Part shown: one piece after another, positions 3,711 to 28,826 of the stretch
Layout: the number at the start of each line of letters is the position of its first letter
How positions within the stretch are numbered: the stretch's first letter is position 1
Assembly (NCBI RefSeq): GCF_029893825.1
Contig: NZ_JARXXV010000001.1
Span: 558,001 to 622,000, forward strand
DNA length: 64,000 bases
Direction: 5' to 3'
Origin: Aurantimicrobium minutum
GTDB lineage: Bacteria > Actinomycetota > Actinomycetes > Actinomycetales > Microbacteriaceae
Notes under the pieces: generated by a model
What the model was told of the DNA's origin: nothing
Seen by the model: only the letters and a program-made list of their open reading frames with translations
Databases searched by the model: none
Position numbers and translations under genes: made by a program

Positions 3711-6467
3711 ATGTCATCACTCCTGTATTCACTCGGTCGCTGGGCATACCGTTCTCGTCGATTGGTGCTCGTTGCCTGGCTGATTATCCTGGTTGCCATA
3801 GGTGGCTCGGCCGCCGCCTTCAATAAAGGGCTCGACAACGGTATCTCCATCCCCGGAACCGAATCCCAAAAAGCACTGGACTCACTGACCACTACCTTCC
3901 CGCAGGTCAGCGGAGCGTCCGCCCAGATCATTGTGGTGGCAGCAAATGGCCAATTCATTACAGACCCTGCATATAAAGACGCCTTGAATGCGGCAGCAGA
4001 TGAGATGGCAAAACTGCCCCAAATCGATAACGCCACCTCACCATTCAATGAACGCATCAATGGCGCAATCAGTGAGAACAAGAAAGCGGGATTGCTGAGC
4101 ATTCAGTTCTCTGGCCCCACCGCAACCATTAAGAAGTCCTCCCTTGCAAAGCTAGAAACGGCAACACAACAGCTCACTGATGAGCTTCCTGCAGGTTCTA
4201 CCGTTTCTTTGGGCGGACAGATCTATAGCCAAAGCATGCCCACCGTGAGCGCGACTGAACTCATCGGCGTGGGAGTGGCCCTGGTGGTACTCATCATCAC
4301 ATTTGGTTCATTCCTTGCAGCAGGTATGCCCTTGCTGACCGCCCTCTTAGGGGTTGGTATCTCGATTGCACTGATTTTCCTTGCCACCGCTTTTGCCAAG
4401 GTTACGTCGACCACCCCGATGCTTGCCCTCATGTTGGGCTTGGCAGTTGGTATCGACTACGCGCTGTTCATCATTTCCCGCCATCAAGATGAACTGCGCA
4501 AGGGAGACACCCCCGAAGAGGCAGCAGCACGCGCTACGGGAACTGCAGGTTCGGCAGTGATCTTTGCAGGATTGACCGTGATGATTGCCCTGGTTGGTCT
4601 TGGCATTGCCGGTATTCCTTTCCTCACCACCATGGGTGTCGCCGCAGCTGTCGGCGTGGGTGTGGCTGTGATTATCTCGATCACGCTCATTCCTGCACTT
4701 CTGGGTTTTGCCGGCGAGCGCCTGCGCCCCAAGAAAAAGAAAACTAAGAAAGCTGAAGCAGCATCACACAAGCCCAACCGCTTCTTCCTGGGCTGGGTGA
4801 AGGCTGTCACACGCTTCCCCATTGTCACCATCTTGGCTGTTGTGGCCGTCATCACCATCGTTGCCCTGCCCGCATTGAATCTGCGACTGGCCTTGCCTGA
4901 CGCAGGAAGCAACTCACCAGATGATCGCTCACGTATTACCTATGACCTTGTTGCTGAGAATTTTGGTGAAGGCTACAACGGTCCCCTTCTCGTTACGGGA
5001 ACAATCGTGACCAGCACGGATCCTCTAGGTCTCATGGATGACCTCAAGGCGGAACTAGAGAAAATCCCAGGCGTTGCAGCTGTTCCGCTGGCAACACCTA
5101 ACATGACTGCGGATACCGGAATCATTCAGGTCATCCCCACAGGTGCTCCAGCGTCAGAAGAAACAAAGGCACTGGTGCAAGCAATTCGAGACAAGCATGA
5201 CTACTTCCAAAAGAAGTACGGAGTCGACTTGTCCGTCACTGGATTCACCGCGAGTGGAATTGATGTTTCGCAGCGTTTAGGAAATGCCTTGCTGCCCTTC
5301 GGCATCGTGGTGGTTGGGCTTTCCCTCATTCTTCTCACCATGGTGTTTAGATCCATCTGGGTGCCCATCAAGGCCGCTATTGGATATCTCTTCAGCGTGG
5401 TTGCCGCCTTTGGTGTGGTCACCCTGGTGATGCAAGAGGGTGTCTGGGCGAACCTGATTCACATTGACCGGCCAGGTCCAGTCCTCAGCTTCATGCCAAT
5501 CATTGTGATGGGCATCCTGTTTGGCCTTGCGATGGACTACGAGGTGTTCCTTGTGGCACGTATGCGTGAAGACTTCGTTCACTCCGGCAATGCGCGCAAA
5601 TCCATCGTGACCGGCTTTGTCGGCTCCGCCAAGGTGGTCACTGCTGCTGCCGTCATCATGTTTGCCGTGTTCGCTGCCTTCGTCCCAGAAGGCGATGTGA
5701 ACATGAAGGGAATTTCACTGGCCCTAGCCGTTGGAATCTTCGTGGATGCCTTTATTGTGCGTATGACTTTTGTTCCAGCAGTTCTCCAACTCCTGGGCAA
5801 GAAGGCCTGGTACATGCCCAAGTGGCTGGATCGCGTGTTGCCTCACTTTGATGTGGAAGGCGAAGGAGTTCAGCACGAACTCGAACTCACTGATTGGCAT
5901 GCAGATCCCAACACGGTGATTGCTGCAGAGGGACTCAGTCTCAAAAACGCTGAAGGAACACGTTCCTACTTCAAGAACCTCAACTTCACAGTCCCCACCG
6001 GAACAACCCTGTTTGTCACCGGAAGCGACAAGATTGCCACCTCGGCACTTCTGCTGACTCTGAGTGGACGACTAGACCCAGATGCAGGCAAGTTGAAGGT
6101 TGCCGGAATGGTTCTGCCTGTGCGCTCGGGTGCTGTGCGGTCTCGCGTTGCCCTTATCGATGTAGCCGAACATGCGAACCGCAACACAGTCGGTGCAATT
6201 GAAGATGCGGCATCTGAAAAGCCTCAGATCATCATTGTGGACAACATTGATTTCCTCTCCTCCGAGAGTGAGCGCTATGCCGTTGCCGATGCCCTCAACG
6301 CCGCTCGCGAAGACGCAACCAATGCCGGTCGCACACTCACCGTGTTGGCTGGAACAACTCACGATATGCCGGTAGAAACCTGGGGCCCTTTCCTCAGCGC
6401 CCGGGTGAATTCGGTGGTGCTTGATCTCGATCATGCATCAACTTCGAGCAAGAAAGTGCAGGCATAA
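3711..6467 (+). CDS. MMPL/RND transporter with degenerate C-terminal ABC-ATPase-like domain
   Basis: 918 residues. Residues 1 to about 730 are an MMPL-type RND exporter: two halves of six membrane helices, each with a periplasmic-type loop and a conserved Asp-Tyr motif (VGIDYALFI near 247, LAMDYEVFLVARMRED near 607). Residues about 740-918 resemble an ABC nucleotide-binding domain (AAEGLSLKN, then LLLTLSGRLDPDAGKLKVAG, a normal ABC context). However, the Walker A position reads TGSDKIATS and the Walker B position IIIVDNID lacks the catalytic Glu. The tail therefore looks like a pseudo-ATPase. The start has AAGGA upstream. It is followed 2 bp later by a YhgE/Pip gene and is probably controlled by the divergent TetR protein. 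Proton-driven export of lipids or drugs is the likely role; the substrate is unknown. Confidence 0.88.
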   Translation: MSSLLYSLGRWAYRSRRLVLVAWLIILVAIGGSAAAFNKGLDNGISIPGTESQKALDSLTTTFPQVSGASAQIIVVAANGQFITDPAYKDALNAAADEMAKLPQIDNATSPFNERINGAISENKKAGLLSIQFSGPTATIKKSSLAKLETATQQLTDELPAGSTVSLGGQIYSQSMPTVSATELIGVGVALVVLIITFGSFLAAGMPLLTALLGVGISIALIFLATAFAKVTSTTPMLALMLGLAVGIDYALFIISRHQDELRKGDTPEEAAARATGTAGSAVIFAGLTVMIALVGLGIAGIPFLTTMGVAAAVGVGVAVIISITLIPALLGFAGERLRPKKKKTKKAEAASHKPNRFFLGWVKAVTRFPIVTILAVVAVITIVALPALNLRLALPDAGSNSPDDRSRITYDLVAENFGEGYNGPLLVTGTIVTSTDPLGLMDDLKAELEKIPGVAAVPLATPNMTADTGIIQVIPTGAPASEETKALVQAIRDKHDYFQKKYGVDLSVTGFTASGIDVSQRLGNALLPFGIVVVGLSLILLTMVFRSIWVPIKAAIGYLFSVVAAFGVVTLVMQEGVWANLIHIDRPGPVLSFMPIIVMGILFGLAMDYEVFLVARMREDFVHSGNARKSIVTGFVGSAKVVTAAAVIMFAVFAAFVPEGDVNMKGISLALAVGIFVDAFIVRMTFVPAVLQLLGKKAWYMPKWLDRVLPHFDVEGEGVQHELELTDWHADPNTVIAAEGLSLKNAEGTRSYFKNLNFTVPTGTTLFVTGSDKIATSALLLTLSGRLDPDAGKLKVAGMVLPVRSGAVRSRVALIDVAEHANRNTVGAIEDAASEKPQIIIVDNIDFLSSESERYAVADALNAAREDATNAGRTLTVLAGTTHDMPVETWGPFLSARVNSVVLDLDHASTSSKKVQA

Positions 6468-18053: not shown

Positions 18054-19652
18054 CTACACAAAACGACTTCTGCGGAGATAGATCATCACGCCCCACAACA
18101 AAGAAGAGAAAGCAAGCCAAAAGAGAACTTCGTTCAGAATTGCTGGGTTACCAGTTTCTGCGAGCGAGCTTGAGTTTCGTGACCCAGACGATGTTGATGC
18201 ACCGGACGCTGATGATGTGGGAGTTGGTGTCGACGTGGGGCTCGAAGGTGTCGGAGTGGGGCTGGGTGCAGCAGGCACTGTCATGAGTGGGATTGTAGCT
18301 GGGTAGATAAGTAATGAATCTGAATAGCCAGCACCTGCTCCCAGGCGACCTTGGAAGCTATAGGTGGCTGAACCAACTGCACTGGTCATGGAGTACATAT
18401 CTGTAACCCACACCCCTGGACTTGCTTCAAAACTATTCGTTAGCCAACCCACCCCTGATGAATCAAAATTCAGGCTGTAACAAGTGGAGAGACACATCGG
18501 CGCCATCATCGCATATGAAACAGAAGCAGAAGTAGGAATATTTTGACCATTACGAGTCAAGGTGAGAAAAAACAGTTGGCTTGGCCCACCGGCTTGACTA
18601 TCCATCAGGCTGTATAAATTGCCATCTACAGGGTTAAACCCACTCGCCAACCCACTTCGTGGCAAACCAGATGCCAACAGAATGAGGTCATATTGGTTAG
18701 CAGCACCTCGAGGTTGAGCGTAATAAACAGAATTGTTACGCCGGAAAATATACATGTAACCGTATTGGTCGATTGCCACAGAGTCGATGGTCACCGTACT
18801 GAGAGCGTTTGACAGATAGAACGTCAGTTCCGCCTCTGTGGCGCCAGAAACTGGCGAAATTTCATACAACTTGGACCAGCTACTGTTCCCATCAACTACA
18901 ACAAATTTGTTAGTGATGGGGTTGTAAGCGCCGCCCGAATAACACTTGCTTGAGGCCTCTGGCGAATTAGTATTCGGCGTCAGAGTTCCATTGGAGGATA
19001 GATCAATAAAAGTCTTGGTTCCTGCAGTTGAATCACACGGAAAAGCCAGCATCTTATTATTTGCCGGCAGGGTCGTAGCAGGGGCAAAGGCTTGCACAAA
19101 ATCACCAAAGCGCAGGCTATCTGTACTAGACACCCACGACCCAGCATAAGTAAACAGGTGAGAGCCGTTGACACCCGAAGTTTCGGTGGCAAAGCTGTAG
19201 TAGTTGGACACATCCGCCGAGGTTGTTGTGAAGACAAGTGCGTAAGAGGTTCCGCTGTAAGCCGCTGCGGGATACACAAAGTCGAACTGAATGGTAGACA
19301 TTGACGTAGATACGGCAGAAGCTGAGACCGTCGTATTAGCCCGGGCAGCACCTGTTGCCGGTGAGCCATTGGCAGTATTGACTACTTCGACTTTGAGATC
19401 GCCAGGCGTACCTGTCTTCTGAACATCAACTGTTATTCGGTGAAGAATGCCCGTTCCAACCGCAGTAAATATTTCTGCGACTTTATTTGACGGATTATTG
19501 AGCACAGATGTTGAGAGAGAAGTGCCTGTGACCTGTTGCTCAGGACCACCCGCGGCACGTGCACTTGTTGCCCCAATCATCGCGGCCATAACTAGTGAGA
19601 TTGAAACGATGAAAGACACAGTGAGGCACTTGTGCGTGACAAACCAGGGCAT
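18054..19652 (-). CDS. Secreted surface protein with LAETG sorting signal
   Basis: 532 residues. A signal peptide (about 1-34, ending SARA) is followed by a beta-rich domain (about 38-165) that resembles the one in the protein at 22300. A central region (about 180-450) has a repeated, propeller-like feel (GGAYNPITNKFVVVDGNS, VAIDQYGYMYIF). A Pro/Thr/Ser linker (about 455-490) leads to LAETG, a hydrophobic helix and the basic tail RRSRFV. LAxTG is the signal of class E sortases in Actinobacteria. A 20-bp palindrome lies 39 bp upstream. The function is unknown; it is likely cell-wall anchored. Confidence 0.82.
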   Translation of the reverse strand: MPWFVTHKCLTVSFIVSISLVMAAMIGATSARAAGGPEQQVTGTSLSTSVLNNPSNKVAEIFTAVGTGILHRITVDVQKTGTPGDLKVEVVNTANGSPATGAARANTTVSASAVSTSMSTIQFDFVYPAAAYSGTSYALVFTTTSADVSNYYSFATETSGVNGSHLFTYAGSWVSSTDSLRFGDFVQAFAPATTLPANNKMLAFPCDSTAGTKTFIDLSSNGTLTPNTNSPEASSKCYSGGAYNPITNKFVVVDGNSSWSKLYEISPVSGATEAELTFYLSNALSTVTIDSVAIDQYGYMYIFRRNNSVYYAQPRGAANQYDLILLASGLPRSGLASGFNPVDGNLYSLMDSQAGGPSQLFFLTLTRNGQNIPTSASVSYAMMAPMCLSTCYSLNFDSSGVGWLTNSFEASPGVWVTDMYSMTSAVGSATYSFQGRLGAGAGYSDSLLIYPATIPLMTVPAAPSPTPTPSSPTSTPTPTSSASGASTSSGSRNSSSLAETGNPAILNEVLFWLAFSSLLWGVMIYLRRSRFV

Positions 19653-19690
19653 TCAGCCAGCGTATGGAAATAACCAAAACGTCTTTGTTT

Positions 19691-19710
19691 TCTCATACAT
19701 ATGTATGAGA
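19691..19710. promoter_or_regulatory. Perfect 20-bp palindrome upstream of the LAETG protein gene
   Basis: TCTCATACATATGTATGAGA is a perfect palindrome, with its core 42 bp upstream of the start at 19652. A near-identical site, CATACAGATGTATG, lies at 23107-23120, the same distance from the start of the LANTG protein. The rest of 19653-19820 holds the upstream region of the lysE-like gene and nothing else recognisable. Confidence 0.7.
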
Positions 19711-19820
19711 TTCATTCTGACTGAACTTGGGACATTGACGGACACGGTTCGTCAATATCGAGATGCTTGCTTTTATCGTGTTGAGACATATCTGTTAAAC
19801 AGTAGAAATACACTGGTGGA

Positions 19821-20456
19821 ATGTCTTTACATCTAGCCGCCGCACTCGCCGGCCTTGGATTTGGACTGTCATTGATCGTTGCCATTGGCGCGCAGAACGC
19901 ATACGTTCTGCGCCAGGGCCTGCGCAAAGAACATGTCTTTGTGATTGTGGCGATTTGTGCGCTCTCCGATGCACTGCTGATTGCCGTTGGCGTGGCCGGC
20001 TTGGGTACCATCATTCAGCAACTGGAGTGGTTACTGCTCCTGATTGAACTCATCGGTGGCGGATTCCTGTGCACCTACGGCGTCATGGCAGCCAAGCGCG
20101 CCTGGAAACCCGAAGTCCTCAACACCGACACCGGTGGTGCTGCAATCAGTCTCAAGGTTGCCGTGGGCACCGTGCTTGCTCTCACCTATCTGAACCCCCA
20201 CGTCTATCTGGACACTGTATTGCTCTTAGGTTCTGTTGCCGGAACTTACGAACAGAACCGCTGGTGGTTTGCCGCTGGCGCCATGATTGGCAGCATAGTG
20301 TGGTTCAGCACCCTCGGCTTTGGCGCACGCCTCCTGGCCCCCGTATTCACAAAGCCGACTGCATGGCGTGTACTGGACGCAGTCATTGCCGTAATTATGT
20401 TTACCCTTGGGATGAGTTTGATCGTGAATTTCTTATCGGTTTTAGTCTCGTCTTGA
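19821..20456 (+). CDS. LysE/ArgO-family amino-acid exporter
   Basis: 211 residues with five or six membrane helices. The family hallmark AIGAQNAYVLRQG is near residue 22, and LTYLNPHVYLDTVLLLG is in the middle. Members export lysine or arginine. A LysG/ArgP regulator usually sits beside such genes, but none is seen here. The gene is convergent with the LARTG gene and lies inside the accessory block, yet it looks like an ordinary chromosomal exporter. Confidence 0.9.
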   Translation: MSLHLAAALAGLGFGLSLIVAIGAQNAYVLRQGLRKEHVFVIVAICALSDALLIAVGVAGLGTIIQQLEWLLLLIELIGGGFLCTYGVMAAKRAWKPEVLNTDTGGAAISLKVAVGTVLALTYLNPHVYLDTVLLLGSVAGTYEQNRWWFAAGAMIGSIVWFSTLGFGARLLAPVFTKPTAWRVLDAVIAVIMFTLGMSLIVNFLSVLVSS

Positions 20457-20472
20457 GTGAAAACCCAGAAAA

Positions 20473-22149
20473 CTACTTTTGGGTTGAGAAAATTAAGATC
20501 TTTCGCGAAAAGAAAAGCCCTACCACAAGCGCAATAAATCCCAGTAATAAGGTGAGAGTCATATTTTGACCCGTCCTTGCTAAATCACCGCTTGATTGGT
20601 CTGTTGAGGGGAGTTCTAAAGTAAAACTTCTTTCGGTAAATGCCGACACATAATTTGCAGTGGTAGAAGCAGTTGCACGTACTAGGCATGTTCCCGAGTG
20701 GCTAAAAGTTATTTCACCGGTGGAAGGGTTAACTGAGCATCCCGATACTCCTGCATTGGCGACAGAGTACGTAATCGCACCGTCTCCGGAACTTGTCGCT
20801 GCCACATTTGGAAGTGACGGACTTGCATTCATAGTCAAATTCGTTGGAGACCAAGATACGTTTTGTGTCGGAAGCGCTGTCCAGTGCGCATATAACGTAA
20901 TGTCCCCATAACCCGTTGGTGAATATGGCGAAGTGAGTGCTGTACCTGAACTGGGGGCGGAATACCAGCCATCAAAATGAAAACCGCTTCTAGTCGGAGA
21001 ATTGGGAAGCGTGACAGAACCACCGGTTTGATATGAGCTTGATGAATTAGATGAGCCACCTTGAGCGTCAAAAGTAACTAGATATGTGCCGACAGACCAT
21101 TGCGCATAAAGAGTAAGGTCATTGGCAAAATTGTATGAACTTTGATCGGAATAACCAGTGCCCAAATTGTTTGACTGAGTATTCCAGCCAGTAAATGAAT
21201 ACCCAGGTCTCGAGAACGTATTTGGTGTGAGGTTTGCTGTACTGGAATCAGTTTGAGCTGGCATGGTTCCAGTAACTCCAGCACCGTTGGGCATGAATTG
21301 AACAGATTTACCCAAGACGCTACTGGCGAAAACCAGAGATCCGTCTGGTGTTTGTTGGTTCGTTGAAGTGGTCAAATTATCAAATTCAAAACCTTGTCCG
21401 CTAAATCGAACAGCGTCAACGGCAGTATTTCCTCCGAGAAACAAATTGAAATACGCAAAAACTGAAGTGTCATCAATTGATGAACGAGTATTCGGAGTCA
21501 AGGAGGTGAAACCACGTGGGTTACCAAAATATCGACCTTTGAGATATGAAGAACCATTAAGCGAAGTCAAAGATGCGGAGCCCGGGTATGGACTCGGAAC
21601 ACTGCCGCCTAAAAGTGTCATCATCTGAGATGAGTCATATGAGGCGACGACAGAACCATTGTTGAGAAATTCAACAGTATTTCCGGTATTTCCAGCAGAC
21701 CACCAGAAACCTACGTATTTGACTGCTGAAGGAAAAGTAAAGGTAATTGTTCCAGCTGGATTTGGATCCCGATAAAGAGTTGCAGCGAAGTTTGTACCGT
21801 TGCCGCCATAATTCGGACTGGCGGATTGTGATTCCGCACCCCCGTAGCCTTGTGGGGTTAAGATTCGGCAGGCGCTCAATCCAGCTTGCGCCCCGCCAGT
21901 GAGAGTTGAAGAGGTAATTGTTCCTACTGCAGTATTTGCAGGACAATCCGCTCCAGGCCACGCAGCCCCCGTAAATGAATTGAAATTTTCTGTCTGCGTT
22001 CCCGAACCAGTTACCGAGGAGCCCTGGACTAAAGGCGCGGACAAATACAGCGCGATGCTATCGCCAGGAGCAGCGAAAGCAGAATGAGGAAAATTGAGCG
22101 AAATGACGACAAAAATCGCAGTGAGCGCCGAGAGTAATTTTTTATTCAT
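20473..22149 (-). CDS. Secreted protein with InlB-type repeats and LARTG sorting signal
   Basis: 558 residues. The signal peptide ends near residue 27 (HSAFA). Residues about 30-270 form a large beta-rich N-terminal region. Two Listeria/Bacteroides-type (InlB B, Flg_new) repeats follow at about 315-430, shown by the YSFTGWNTQ...LTLYAQW and FHFDGWYSA...ITLYAHW pairs. An Ig-like segment (about 435-520) leads to LARTG, a hydrophobic helix and a Lys/Arg-bearing tail. The base composition is visibly AT-richer than the housekeeping genes around it. An adhesion or surface role is inferred from the repeats. Confidence 0.82.
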   Translation of the reverse strand: MNKKLLSALTAIFVVISLNFPHSAFAAPGDSIALYLSAPLVQGSSVTGSGTQTENFNSFTGAAWPGADCPANTAVGTITSSTLTGGAQAGLSACRILTPQGYGGAESQSASPNYGGNGTNFAATLYRDPNPAGTITFTFPSAVKYVGFWWSAGNTGNTVEFLNNGSVVASYDSSQMMTLLGGSVPSPYPGSASLTSLNGSSYLKGRYFGNPRGFTSLTPNTRSSIDDTSVFAYFNLFLGGNTAVDAVRFSGQGFEFDNLTTSTNQQTPDGSLVFASSVLGKSVQFMPNGAGVTGTMPAQTDSSTANLTPNTFSRPGYSFTGWNTQSNNLGTGYSDQSSYNFANDLTLYAQWSVGTYLVTFDAQGGSSNSSSSYQTGGSVTLPNSPTRSGFHFDGWYSAPSSGTALTSPYSPTGYGDITLYAHWTALPTQNVSWSPTNLTMNASPSLPNVAATSSGDGAITYSVANAGVSGCSVNPSTGEITFSHSGTCLVRATASTTANYVSAFTERSFTLELPSTDQSSGDLARTGQNMTLTLLLGFIALVVGLFFSRKILIFSTQK

Positions 22150-22299
22150 ATACCCAGAAAAGTCCAGAAAATTGTGCCTTCAGTATAGCTTTCCGCCTCA
22201 TCTAGAGCATCTTGCACCCAACACCAAAATTCAGTTTTGCTCGAAGCTTCCGGAATTCTCAAAAACTTTTGCAGATTAAGTGTCTACGTTTATATCCCA

Positions 22300-23064
22300 C
22301 TAGTTATGTGTGGCGGTTTTTCGCCCAAGCAATAACATCACGAGACCTGCAAGTAGCAACATGAGTCCCGATGACATTAGCGGAAATACATCAGTTTCTT
22401 GAATACCCGTGTTTGCAAGGTTTGGGTCAGAAATTACTGAAGTAGACGCTGAGGGCGAGGGTGAAGGAACTGCTGTTACATATGTTGCAAATCGAAAACT
22501 CGTTTGATTAGGGGTAACACCAGTATCGATGTAGTTTTGCCAACCGACGTTTCCAGAACCTGGTTTAACTCCCTTTGCACCAGCTGGAACAGTGGTCGCA
22601 TTTTCAAAGTGATATTCACCAGAACCAGTGGTGCTGAACACAATTGCGTATGCGGTTCCACTAGCAACAGTTACAGGCGAAGTGAAATCAAACACAACTG
22701 TGGACACTGTTCCTGGAATGAGAGTTTGTGAAACTGAAGCTGAGCTCAATGAGTTACCGGTAGGAAATCCTGATCCATCGACAGCATAAATCGAAGCCAC
22801 CAACGGAGCCGTGGTAGCGCTCTGGAAAGAGTAAGCATCAATAGAAATTCGGTCTAACTGCCCTGACGCTCCAGCAGTGAAAACCTGTGCCAATGGAACA
22901 TTGTTCATGATGTAGTACCAACGAGTACTAGAACCTGTTGCTTGCTGATCAAGTGTTCCTAGAGCTGTTGCTGACAGCGCAGGGAAAAGACCAATGAACA
23001 AAGAAACCACAAGGGCGACAGGGGCAAAAATCCCTGCGCGCGTGCGCATTGCAAGCTGAGACAT
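22300..23064 (-). CDS. Secreted surface protein with LANTG sorting signal
   Basis: 254 residues from ATG 23064. A signal peptide (about 1-35, ending SATALG) precedes a beta-sandwich-like domain (about 38-195: LDQQATGSS, AQVFTAGASGQLDRI, FDFTSPVTVASGTAYAIVF). This resembles the N-terminal domain of the protein at 18054 (choice-of-anchor-R-like, from memory). The C-terminus has LANTG, a hydrophobic stretch and GRKTATHN. ATG 23109 is in frame but lies inside a palindrome shared with the 18054 gene, so 23064 is preferred. It is divergent from the response regulator gene. Confidence 0.78.
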   Translation of the reverse strand: MSQLAMRTRAGIFAPVALVVSLFIGLFPALSATALGTLDQQATGSSTRWYYIMNNVPLAQVFTAGASGQLDRISIDAYSFQSATTAPLVASIYAVDGSGFPTGNSLSSASVSQTLIPGTVSTVVFDFTSPVTVASGTAYAIVFSTTGSGEYHFENATTVPAGAKGVKPGSGNVGWQNYIDTGVTPNQTSFRFATYVTAVPSPSPSASTSVISDPNLANTGIQETDVFPLMSSGLMLLLAGLVMLLLGRKTATHN

Positions 23065-23106
23065 AGCGCCAACAGTAACCAGATTGGAGAGATGTGTTGA
23101 GATATT

Positions 23107-23120
23107 CATACAGATGTATG
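23107..23120. promoter_or_regulatory. Second copy of the CATACA-N2-TGTATG palindrome
   Basis: CATACAGATGTATG differs from the core of the 19691 site at one base and is also followed by AG. It lies between the divergent LANTG gene and the response regulator gene, 42 bp from the preferred LANTG start, matching the spacing at the LAETG gene. Confidence 0.65.
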
Positions 23121-23189
23121 AGTCTGTAAAGGAATACGGCTCTACAGGTATTTTGAAAACTGCGACCTGGTTACGAACTGGAGGACATT

Positions 23190-23873
23190 GTGCGCAATAC
23201 ACGTGTTCTCTATGTCGAAGATGACCCTGCACTTCGGTCGATAATGAGCGGCTTACTCACGAAACAAGACGGTATTGATGTAACGGGGCAAGCAGAAGCC
23301 TCTACTCCTGCGCTTGAACTTGCTCAGAAACAAGATTTCGATGTGGCGCTTCTAGACATTGCTCTGGGCCAAGACAGCGCCAACGGGATTGAACTAGGCC
23401 TACAGTTACGAACAATCCAACCCCATATTGGCATCGTCATTTATTCTCAGCATGCCCAATCAACCTTTCCCCTGAACATGAATGCGCGGATACGAGAGGG
23501 GTGGTCAACGGTGCAAAAGAGTGCATCCATTGACATGCCCTACCTCGTTGAGGTCCTGAGGGCCACCGCGCTCGGGCTCTCAGTTATCGACCCCAAACTC
23601 TCTCAGACTGATCGGGAAGAACCTGCTGCAGACTCAGGGTTGAAGGATCTGAGCCCTCGGCAGCACAAAATTATGGCTCTCTTGATCGAAGGTCTTGATG
23701 TGCCACACATTGCGACAAAACTTGGTGTCTCCGCTGTAACGATTAGGCAGGAACTTTCCCGAATATACAAAGTCTTAGTCCCCCATCCTGGAGCAGGTAC
23801 TGACCTCAGAACAACAGCCGTGCTCAGATACCTCCGGCTCAGTAGAAACTATGCGTGGGGTAATGCTGAATAA
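23190..23873 (+). CDS. Response regulator, NarL/LuxR type
   Basis: 227 residues from GTG 23190, with GGAGG five bases upstream. The receiver domain (1 to about 125) has Asp11/Asp12, phospho-acceptor Asp56 (ALLDIAL), Ser86 and Lys110. The C-terminal LuxR-type helix-turn-helix (about 152-205) reads LSPRQHKIMALLIEGLDVPHIATKLGVS in two conserved pieces. It overlaps the downstream kinase gene. The adjacent divergent surface protein is a likely target. Proteins of this class bind palindromes of about 20 bp, which fits the repeated site nearby. Confidence 0.9.
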   Translation: MRNTRVLYVEDDPALRSIMSGLLTKQDGIDVTGQAEASTPALELAQKQDFDVALLDIALGQDSANGIELGLQLRTIQPHIGIVIYSQHAQSTFPLNMNARIREGWSTVQKSASIDMPYLVEVLRATALGLSVIDPKLSQTDREEPAADSGLKDLSPRQHKIMALLIEGLDVPHIATKLGVSAVTIRQELSRIYKVLVPHPGAGTDLRTTAVLRYLRLSRNYAWGNAE

Positions 23874-24945
23874 AACCGCTTTTGCCCGCATCTTCGACTT
23901 TGTTGCAGGACCATGGCCCATTCACCCCATTGGGTTCGCAATCATCGCTGGGTTCCTCAACCAATTTTCAGGGGTTCGTTTAGCAGTCAGCCATGGTCAG
24001 TCGACCGCAGAAGCATGGATCCACTTCTTACCAAGCAGCATCGCTATGGCTGCGATTCTGTGGGCAGGTTTTGCGCTCACATCTGTCTTGATCAAGCGAG
24101 CACCAACACGTCGACAGAAACAAGCAACATATCTCGGAATCAATTTCCTCATTTCAGGGATATTCGCTGTTCTATTTGGCATCTATGACGGAAGGCCTGT
24201 CATGGATGCCCCACTGAACACACTTCGCATGTATTTGGTAATTCTCACCGTCTCAACAATTTTTGGCATCAGTGAAAATCGCATTAGGAGACAAGCCACT
24301 CGTGCAGAGGATGCTTTGGCAGAAGTAGATCGGCAGCGTTCACTCCTACTCCAAGCCGATGAAGGCACACGACGCGAAGTTGCAGATTTCTTGCATGACA
24401 GAGTTCAAGCAGGCTTGGTCGTTGCGAACATGCAGTTAGGAAACATTTCCGAAAAACTCAGCGACCAACATAAAGCTGAGCTGAAATCTGTTATCGAGGA
24501 ACTCGAAGAAATCCGACGATTCGACGTCAGAGATGCAAGCAGACTTCTCAGTCCCGACATAGCGGTTGTTGGGTTAGAGCGATGCTTGACCGAGCTCAGT
24601 GCGAGATACCGGGATTCTATGAACATAGCCGTGAGTGTCACCCTTGATCCACGCACCATCGATACTCGACGACAACTCGCGATATATCGAATTATTGAGC
24701 AAGGCATCCTCAACGCAGCCGTTCATGGTCACGCTACCCAATGCCAAGTGCAAGTGTTACGCAGTGGAGAACTACTTGAGATAACTGTTCAGAATAATGG
24801 CCGAGTACTTTCTGGGACAGCGATTTCTTCTGGCTCCGGAACTGCCGTTATTGATGCGTGGACATCACAATTCTCGGGCAGTTGGTCGTTGACAATGGGC
24901 CAAGAAAATCACGTACTTCTTCGAGCTTCACTCTTAAGCTCGTAA
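23851..24945 (+). CDS. Sensor histidine kinase, NarL-partner type
   Basis: 364 residues from ATG 23851 (ATG 23863 is an alternative); it overlaps the regulator by 23 bp. The N-terminal half has about four membrane helices (about 22-140) and no large extracellular domain. A coiled segment (about 145-170) leads to a HisKA_3-type dimerisation domain with REVADFLHDRVQAGLV, where the phospho-acceptor is His182. The ATPase domain is short and weak: an N-box-like ILNAAVHGHA is visible, but the G-boxes are only faint. The stimulus is unknown. Confidence 0.82.
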   Translation: MRGVMLNKTAFARIFDFVAGPWPIHPIGFAIIAGFLNQFSGVRLAVSHGQSTAEAWIHFLPSSIAMAAILWAGFALTSVLIKRAPTRRQKQATYLGINFLISGIFAVLFGIYDGRPVMDAPLNTLRMYLVILTVSTIFGISENRIRRQATRAEDALAEVDRQRSLLLQADEGTRREVADFLHDRVQAGLVVANMQLGNISEKLSDQHKAELKSVIEELEEIRRFDVRDASRLLSPDIAVVGLERCLTELSARYRDSMNIAVSVTLDPRTIDTRRQLAIYRIIEQGILNAAVHGHATQCQVQVLRSGELLEITVQNNGRVLSGTAISSGSGTAVIDAWTSQFSGSWSLTMGQENHVLLRASLLSS

Positions 24946-27106: not shown

Positions 27107-27544
27107 ATGGCACAACAACACCTGGAATTAGTGGTCAGACCACTCACCGGAGAATCAATTCCGGCAATTCTGGCTGCCTCCACTGCCGTTCAAGCAGGTT
27201 TTCCCTCCCCCGCGCAAGATTATTTTGATGGTCGAGTTGACCTGAATACTCACCTAATCAAAGACGTGAATTCCACATTCATTGTTCGCGTTGCCGGCGA
27301 CAGCATGAAAAATGCCGGCATTAGTGACGGCGATGAAGTGATCGTGGATCGAGCCCTGACACCTCGCGACGGTGACGTCGTGGTGGCAGTGCTCGATGGT
27401 GAACTAACCCTCAAGCGATTATTCATTCGTTCTGAGCGAGTGCTACTCAAAGCCGAGAATCCTCGTTACCCCGATATTGCCGTGGATAGCTTGAGTGAAC
27501 TGACGATTTGGGGCGTTGTGACTCGGTGTTTGCACCATGTCTAA
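27107..27544 (+). CDS. umuD: UmuD-like S24-family self-cleaving protein
   Basis: 145 residues. Probable cleavage site Ala30-Gly31 in QAGFPSPA, Ser66 in AGDSMKNAG and Lys103 in LTLKRLF form the LexA-type dyad. In Pol V systems the cleaved form joins UmuC to make the error-prone polymerase. A strong ribosome-binding site (AGGAGG) precedes the ATG. The umuC start lies inside this gene (8-bp overlap), which suggests tight coupling. Confidence 0.93.
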
Positions 27545-28826
27545 CCCTTCACAACGCCGCATTGCGCTGGTGGATGTGAACAGCTTCTTCGCATCCTGCG
27601 AGCGTGTCTTTGACCCGAGCCTCGAGGGCAAACCTGTTGTGGTGCTCTCGAACAATGACGGCTGCGTGGTGGCACTGAGCAAGGAAGCTAAAGCACTGGG
27701 CGTGAAGATGGGCATTCCCTGGTTCAAGATCTCGGCCTGGGCACCCAGTGTGGGCTTGGTGGCCAGATCATCCAACTATGAGCTCTATGGCGATCTCTCC
27801 TCACGTGTGATGAGTATCTTGCATGAGTTCTCTGCCCACGTGGAGGTGTATAGCGTCGATGAAGCCTTCCTCGAACTCAGCGGAACACCAGAAGAGCTCG
27901 TTGCTCTAGGCCACGAGATCAAAGCCACCATTTACAACAAGCTTGGCTTACCGGTGTGTGTGGGTATTGGCAGGTCGAAGACTCAAGCCAAGCTCGCCAA
28001 TAGCGGGGCAAAGAAGTCTGCGGGTTTGGGCGGGGTGTGTAATCTCGACCAGTTCACGCCTGAACAGCTTGACCACATCATGGCCGCCTTGCCCGTGGAC
28101 AATATTTGGGGCATTGCCCGGCGTCTGAGTAAGCGCCTCAACAGCATGGGTATCCACACCATCAAAGATTTGAGGGATGCGGACCCCGTGCGCATCAAGA
28201 AGAAGTTTGGCGTGGTGGTGCAGCGCTCACTCTATGAGTTGCGTGGCATCGACTGCATCAAGCTCGAGGGTGAGCGTCTGGTGAAGAACCAGGTGATGTA
28301 TTCGCGCAGTTTTGCCACCCCGGTCACCACACGCAAGCAGATGGAAGAAGTCTTGGCGGTCTATGCCCAGCGCGTGAGTAAACGCCTGCGCAAGCAGGGT
28401 TCTGTGGCGGCAGCATTGACGTGCTTTGCGGGAACTTCACGCTTTGCCAACGAACCCTTCCACTCCCCCTATAGGAACGCGGTGTTCTCCGTTCCGACCA
28501 ACGATCCCGTGGAGATTTTGAAGGCATCGAGTGCTGTCCTACTCGAGTGCATTGAGGACGGTAGGAAGTATGTGCGCGCAGGAATCATGCTCCACGATGT
28601 GAGTCCTAAAACCTCTCACCAATACCTCGACCTGTTCACCCCCATTCACGAGAGCAGGCAGCTTGGTGAAGTACTTGATCACGTGATGGAGAAGCATGGC
28701 GCCTTCAGTATTGGGTTAGGAGCAGCCGGCTTCAAATCTCCACGGCAGTGGGAGATGAAGAGAGAGCTCCTCTCCCTCAGGGCCACCACACGGTGGGATG
28801 AGTTGGCCACCGTTCACGCAAAGTAA
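27537..28826 (+). CDS. umuC: UmuC-like Y-family DNA polymerase
   Basis: 429 residues. Palm motifs are present: [17 protein letters not shown] (first catalytic Asp), [12 protein letters not shown], and [10 protein letters not shown] (second catalytic acid pair). The C-terminal half has the little-finger and DUF4113-like regions typical of full-length UmuC. It carries out mutagenic translesion synthesis together with UmuD'. Its stop directly abuts the stop of the convergent permease gene, with no terminator between them. Confidence 0.94.

Follow-up and report, generated by a model that had tools for sequence, protein, structure and literature searches.

Two-component systems with response regulators of the NarL type include NarX/NarL (nitrate) and EvgA/EvgS (acid response) of Escherichia coli, and the site of EvgA contains TACA-N2-TGTA. 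In the NarL operator, a 2-bp spacer separates two 7-base arms (i.e., 7-2-7), and in the cited part of PMC7419079 NarL activates from a single site of this kind just upstream of the -35 element, for example at -44.5. Similarly, the cited part of PMC3720670 describes EvgA as binding inverted repeats and activating. In the present study, a pair of nearly identical palindromes was analyzed in a 64,000-nucleotide stretch of Aurantimicrobium minutum DNA (contig NZ_JARXXV010000001.1, positions 558,001 to 622,000; hereafter the window), where they lie upstream of two genes for anchored surface proteins and beside a gene for a NarL/FixJ-type response regulator (RR). Comparison of sequences makes it highly probable that the palindromes are the operator of the RR encoded at 23190-23873, which would activate both its own gene and the surface-protein genes as part of a NarL-type two-component system. 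The elements concerned are the following.

19691..19710, unstranded: putative operator copy 1, 14-bp core at 19694-19707, upstream of the gene for the LAETG surface protein
23106..23121, unstranded: putative operator copy 2, 14-bp core at 23107-23120, common to the divergent LANTG gene and RR gene
18054..19652, (-): predicted target gene 1, 532-aa secreted protein with an N-terminal domain common with target 2 and a C-terminal LAETG anchor
22300..23064, (-): predicted target gene 2, 254-aa secreted protein with a sub-threshold match to choice-of-anchor R (25.8 against a cut-off of 30) and a LANTG anchor
23190..23873, (+): RR gene, NarL/FixJ-type, Response_reg plus GerE
23851..24945, (+): probable cognate histidine kinase gene, UhpB/NarX-like, hydrophobic N-terminus, HD-x2-Q

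Copy 1 (TCTCATACATATGTATGAGA, 19691-19710) is a perfect 20-bp palindrome and copy 2 (CATACAGATGTATG, 23107-23120) is symmetric except for its 2-bp centre, forming with one further base pair the 16-bp palindrome TCATACAGATGTATGA. Both carry the full 7-2-7 arrangement, i.e., two 7-bp inverted arms and a 2-bp spacer. An earlier sequence-only reading of the window, in which the palindromes were proposed as target sites of the LuxR-type RR, had located both copies correctly, and a single base of 14 distinguishes their cores. The distance of about 42 bp that it gave from each copy to the start of a LAxTG protein was measured as 41 bp between core 1 and the ATG of 18054-19652(-) and 42 bp between core 2 and the ATG at 23064 of 22300-23064(-). 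The resemblance it had seen between the N-terminal domains of these proteins was confirmed (32% identity over 152 aa, E=2e-14), as was the location of the second copy, whose core falls within the divergent promoter ahead of the RR gene at 23190-23873 (+). The ATG at 23064 is our choice of start for the LANTG gene; a mechanical list of open reading frames (ORFs) starts this frame at GTG 23232, in which case copy 2 would fall inside the ORF.

The rarity of the palindrome was evident from a search of the whole genome (G000; 1,674,829 bases in 2 contigs) in which the reversed pattern served as control. The sequence CATACANNTGTATG (CATACA-NN-TGTATG) occurred exactly twice, both times in the window and each time before a LAxTG surface gene, as opposed to 0 occurrences of the control and 0.08 exact sites expected per genome from the base composition of the window. 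This search, which the sequence-only reading had proposed as a test, returned two sites rather than many copies at random places. With up to 1 mismatch there were 5 places versus 1 for the control, and with up to 2 mismatches 23 versus 18; 13 of 21 near-matches were inspected, and all lay inside ORFs (12 in ORFs of at least 173 aa, one in a 70-aa ORF). Given these last two results, a wider regulon in this genome was rejected as background.

Occurrence of the exact site followed that of the RR. Among 8 genomes of the genus, a close RR was found only in G000 and in G004 (69% identity), and the exact site was found in the same two genomes, with 2 copies in each. The other 6 had neither, although 5 of these 6 hold other NarL-type regulators that are 31-35% identical. 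In a sample of 398 genomes of the family, 23 matched the RR at E<=1e-28, of which 9 were taken as close carriers (at least 41% identity, E<=1e-42) and the other 14 (at most 37%) were counted as non-carriers. The exact site was present in 7/398 genomes and together with a close RR in 5, i.e., in 5/9 close carriers versus 2/389 others (Fisher p=3e-8, uncorrected for kinship), and the reversed control appeared in one genome (G075). This association supports the earlier proposal of the LuxR-type RR as candidate binder. In the genus of G159 (67 genomes), the RR was found at E<=1e-40 in 5 and the site in 2, both among those 5. The distance from the start of the site to the RR gene was 83, 83, 84, 90 and 91 bp in G000, G004, G177, G159 and G098, respectively, i.e., in all five genomes that have both. 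Among the 8 exact sites that these genomes hold, 5 have the full 7-2-7 arrangement, and in the 3 sites of G159 and G098 the outermost T is replaced by C.

The promoters that face the sites have a common architecture. At +29 or +30 relative to the 14-mer, a TANNNT sequence, the actinobacterial -10 box, begins in 11/11 facing promoters (6 of surface genes and 5 of regulators) as opposed to 1/9 other sides with TANNNT within 28-31, at +28. None of 20,000 base-shuffled sets reached 11, the maximum being 6 in any 2-nt window. The corresponding elements in the window are as follows.

19659..19664, (-): TACGCT, predicted -10 box that begins 30 bp beyond operator 1, with 6 nt between box and ATG; predicted leaderless
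23072..23077, (-): TACTGT, predicted -10 box that begins 30 bp beyond operator 2, with 7 nt between box and ATG; predicted leaderless
23149..23154, (+): TATTTT, predicted -10 box of the RR promoter that begins 29 bp beyond operator 2
23180..23184, (+): GGAGG, probable ribosome-binding site ahead of the RR gene, which would be leadered, unlike the surface genes

When the segments from operator to box were aligned, no column exceeded 0.7 bits except the base directly before the box (the T, A and T of the box being fixed by construction), and the best -35 matches in these promoters were 1-4 of 6. In 5/6 surface genes the ATG lies 6-7 nt after the -10 box, and the mRNAs of these five are therefore predicted to be leaderless; in the G177 gene it lies about 70 nt after. 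With transcription beginning at the A of each ATG, the centre of the operator would fall at -48.5 for the LAETG gene and at -49.5 for the LANTG gene, and a centre near -48.5 is a position expected of an activator. A composite built from these promoters (TACANNTGT-N31-33-TANNNT-N6-7-ATG) matched only the 5 surface genes in 5 genomes, with 1 match for the reversed control. TANNNT promoters that lack a -35 motif, along with many leaderless mRNAs, are described for Mycobacterium tuberculosis in the cited part of PMC3898074. A hairpin or terminator reading of the palindrome was rejected, its centre being at most 2 bp and its position, judging by the predicted -10 boxes, being upstream of the transcript.

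Both domains of the RR place it in the NarL/FixJ type. The receiver domain of the RR matched Response_reg at 53.1 bits (cut-off 30.2) and its C-terminal helix-turn-helix matched GerE at 28.8 bits (cut-off 23.5), and residues D12, D56 and K110 were invariant in 21 aligned sequences. The HisKA_3 and HATPase_c matches of the kinase fell below Pfam cut-offs, as did its matches to the UhpB and NarX models below theirs (E 9e-12 and 8e-7), and the HD-x2-Q motif and a C-terminal Asn (N288) were invariant in 10/10 aligned kinases. The LAETG and LANTG tails of the targets were read from the sequence. According to the cited part of PMC5148588, LAXTG is the signal of class E sortases of soil and freshwater actinobacteria. 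One sortase (PF04203) was found in G000, at 83.7 bits against a cut-off of 26.6; this family was present in the three genomes with LxxTG-anchored targets (G000, G004 and G177) and was not found by the same search in G159 or G098. A gene for a third anchored protein (LARTG; window 20473-22149, (-)) sits between the two targets and encodes an Npun_F0296 surface domain and Listeria-Bacteroides repeats, the latter about 40% identical to repeats of the G159 target protein described below. No CATACANNTGTATG-like site was found upstream of this gene, and it was not counted as a target. Further along the window (27107-28826, (+)), a Peptidase_S24 (UmuD/LexA-like) gene is followed by an impB/mucB/samB (UmuC-like) polymerase gene, a pair of the SOS mutagenesis type that, by reading, also lies beside the locus in G004 (L020 14246-15980).

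Predicted targets in other genomes were again genes for surface or secreted proteins. In G004, the sites face the RR gene and two adjacent anchored-protein genes that are 30-36% identical to the window targets over aligned parts, and in G177 the site faces the gene for a LAQTG protein with no significant match to them. The strongest single case is G159, which belongs to a different genus; its second site lies 41 bp before the gene for an unrelated 944-aa secreted repeat protein, i.e., at the same spacing, and distant from the RR, the two sites being separated by 1.15 Mb of a 1.34-Mb contig (or, should the contig be circular, by 0.18 Mb in the other direction). The site of G098 convincingly faces the RR gene only, as the secreted gene opposite lies further off and has no -10 box. 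Among other orthologues of the RR, genes for secreted or repeat-rich proteins, with signal peptides judged by eye, were found divergent to the RR gene in G211, L061, L062 and L066-L070 and behind the kinase gene in G208, G017 and L063-L065. Pfam domains of the leucine-rich, Listeria-Bacteroides, Ig-like, TIG, DUF285 or fibronectin III types were present in 6 of 7 such proteins, and the Pfam scan of the seventh found no domain. Other genes were noted near these loci. A transposase-like ORF (L020 7032-8483, (+); HTH_38 and rve integrase core) adjoins the tandem target genes of G004 and is a possible source of rearrangement there. A heavy-metal P-type ATPase gene (L052 5275-7425, (+)) lies about 2 kb from the RR site in G159, and in G177 the distance between the site and a CopC gene (L050 13633-14280, (-)) is about 5 kb.

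Variant operators were sought in 22 orthologues of the RR, namely the 9 close family carriers, G436 and L061-L072. The 21 without G436 are 35-68% identical to the window RR (itself aside); 46 of 59 loci (L073-L118, E 5e-9 or worse) were dropped, L060 was dropped as a duplicate of G177, and L065 and L072 derive from one metagenome bin. An inner core, ACANNTGT, was present within 160 bp upstream of the RR gene in 18/22 orthologues versus 0.81 expected from base shuffles, the core and search width having been chosen after inspection of the sequences. Operator flanks seem to vary with the recognition helix of the RR, as judged from a pairing read by eye from alignments. Thus, VTIRQ(E/D)LS was paired with CATACA..TGTATG in 5 orthologues, VTVRQELSKCY with TAACA..TGTTC in 2, GVVRQELSR with GAACA..TGTCT in 3 and YVRK(E/Q)LSR (in one case YVRAELSR) with (A/T)ACA..TGTGAC in 6; L061 and L062 each fell outside these groups. 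The L061 locus (5842-5919) holds a pair of ACANNTGT cores at a distance of 64 bp, in front of the RR gene and a divergent gene whose product has leucine-rich repeats and exceeds 1,900 aa; each of the two promoters has its own core, with TANNNT at +29/+30 towards the gene concerned. In L056 and L066-L070, none of which has TANNNT at +29/+30, the variant (A/T)ACANNTGTGAC lies 41-42 nt before the conserved RR ATG (measured from the end of the 14-mer), and in 5/6 the true RR start may instead be an ATG or GTG in the same frame, 15 nt upstream of it. No TANNNT was present at +29/+30 in the TGTGAC clade (G211, L066-L070), and one was noted at +15 in L067/L069. A relaxed composite (AACANNTGT core, -10 box and ATG) was searched for in 16 genomes where the operator is a variant or none is known and matched in 2, i.e., G017, where the core lies 30 bp before the -10 box, and G460. 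Control matches appeared in G460 and G461 (control alone in the latter), and only G017 was retained. There, CGAACAAATGTATG with TACTGT at +30 precedes an 867-aa secreted gene behind the kinase gene, which lends weak support.

Several observations weigh against operation of the RR on these sites as an activator of surface-protein genes. One exact, fully symmetric site occurs in each of G022 and G379, which have no close RR (neither site has TANNNT at +28 to +31 on either side), and 4/9 close RR carriers have no exact palindrome; at the RR genes of these four, the core is TAACANNTGTTC in G020 and G208, AACANNTGTGAC in G211 and absent from G017. In all, no core was found at the RR gene in 4/22 orthologues (G017, G436, L071 and L072). 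The 11/11 spacing of the -10 box was tested on the very promoters in which it had been noticed, and among variant-core orthologues TANNNT was absent from +29/+30 in 9/13, being kept only in G020, G208, L061 and L062; distance alone does not single out those that lack it (identity is 48-50% for L063 and L064). The four that keep it thus provide partial out-of-sample support for the rule and the nine misses partial counter-evidence. A near-match in G208 before an 864-aa secreted gene has no -10 box at +29, and no secreted-protein gene was seen beside the system in G020 and L071. Finally, the genomes are related (e.g., the regulators of L067/L069 and of G159/G098 are nearly identical), so that p-values are optimistic.

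Other accounts of the palindrome were compared with this one. If it is the operator of the RR but a site of repression of the surface genes and of the RR gene itself, which we regard as improbable, a dimer just upstream of the -35 position could impede polymerase, and some regulators of this type do both. However, the site is clear of the predicted -10 box and +1 in 11/11 promoters, none of which has a good -35, which fits dependence on an activator, and NarL activates from a single 7-2-7 site just upstream of the -35 element and from -44.5 (PMC7419079). Because of operator position and this precedent for single-site activation, activation with positive autoregulation through the common divergent operator would be the best-supported mode.

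Binding of the palindrome by another factor, such as a copper repressor of the BlaI/CopY type, is suggested by a match between the inner 10 bp of both window copies and the CopY operator TACANNTGTA given in the cited part of PMC7253601, and by copper-related genes near sites in two of five genomes (the P-type ATPase of G159 and CopC of G177). Yet the site does not front copper genes (in G159 another gene lies between), and a scan of 19 neighbouring ORFs, which are a part of all, gave no match to a BlaI/CopY-type Pfam family at E<=0.001, no whole-genome search for this family having been made. Moreover, the site follows this RR and not other NarL-type regulators of the genus, its centre is near -48.5 rather than over the core promoter, and the flanks of the core seem to change in step with the recognition helix, so we consider binding by another factor very unlikely. 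Hardly credible is chance similarity, or carriage of site copies along with duplication of a surface gene. Targets 1 and 2 are paralogues, so that the site could have been inherited with the gene, but only 0.08 exact sites are expected per genome, and this account is contradicted by the unrelated target of G159, in another genus with the same spacing, and by the target of G177, which has no significant match to those of the window.

From the sites, their spacing, their co-occurrence with the RR and the gene content we infer binding, phosphorylation, activation and transcription starts as follows. The membrane kinase encoded next to the RR would phosphorylate it at D56, and an RR dimer would bind the 7-2-7 inverted repeat TCATACA-NN-TGTATGA, the centre of which would lie about 48.5 bp ahead of the transcription start, beside the expected place of a -35 element. 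The bound dimer would recruit RNA polymerase to TANNNT -10 promoters that have no recognizable -35. The site at 23107-23120 would serve the back-to-back promoters of the RR/kinase genes and the LANTG gene, giving positive autoregulation, and that at 19694-19707 would serve the LAETG gene, the surface-protein mRNAs being leaderless.

Such a locus offers a testable regulon in small, aquatic-type actinobacteria (an operator and a kinase-regulator pair, with autoregulation as well as two surface targets), and its strict operator-to--10 spacing with no -35 would make it a clean model for an activator acting on TANNNT leaderless promoters. It is quite possible, though we would not yet favor it, that these loci represent a lineage-wide "surface-coat switch", i.e., one hitherto undescribed two-component family, found in freshwater actinobacteria and related ones and having an operator in which the ACANNTGT core is conserved and the flanks co-diverge with the recognition helix, that controls the large secreted protein of each lineage (leucine-rich, Listeria-Bacteroides-repeat, fibronectin III, Ig-like or choice-of-anchor), the switch being kept and the cargo exchanged. 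If so, one conserved sensor would be linked to fast-changing cell surfaces, plausibly in relation to grazers, phages or attachment. Among the matches listed in a literature search, no such system was described, judging by title and opening of the abstract, and no occurrence of CATACANNTGTATG was found.

In comparison with solved structures, VraR (E=4e-20), NarL, DevR and DesR were the best profile matches, those to chains of NarL, VraR and DevR extending over two domains. No NCBIfam cut-off was passed by the RR (25 models shown of 42) or by the kinase (7 models), which distinguishes the present system from those of VraR, DevR, DesR and the LiaR type, although the kinase weakly matches LiaS (24 bits). 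EvgA is of the same regulator type, but the RR scored 32.3 with the EvgA model as opposed to a cut-off of 251, and kinase and targets also differ. Likeness to NarX/NarL includes the architecture of the regulator, a profile of 21 orthologues matching both domains of NarL (1a04) with E=2e-19, as well as the 7-2-7 form of the site and its place in the promoter. In contrast with NarX/NarL, the operator letters in the window are different, the predicted targets are surface proteins and the predicted promoters are leaderless with no recognizable -35, and scores are far from the NarL and NarX cut-offs (49.5 of 250 for the RR and 28.1 of 578 for the kinase). These comparisons indicate that the system probably works like NarL but is not NarL.

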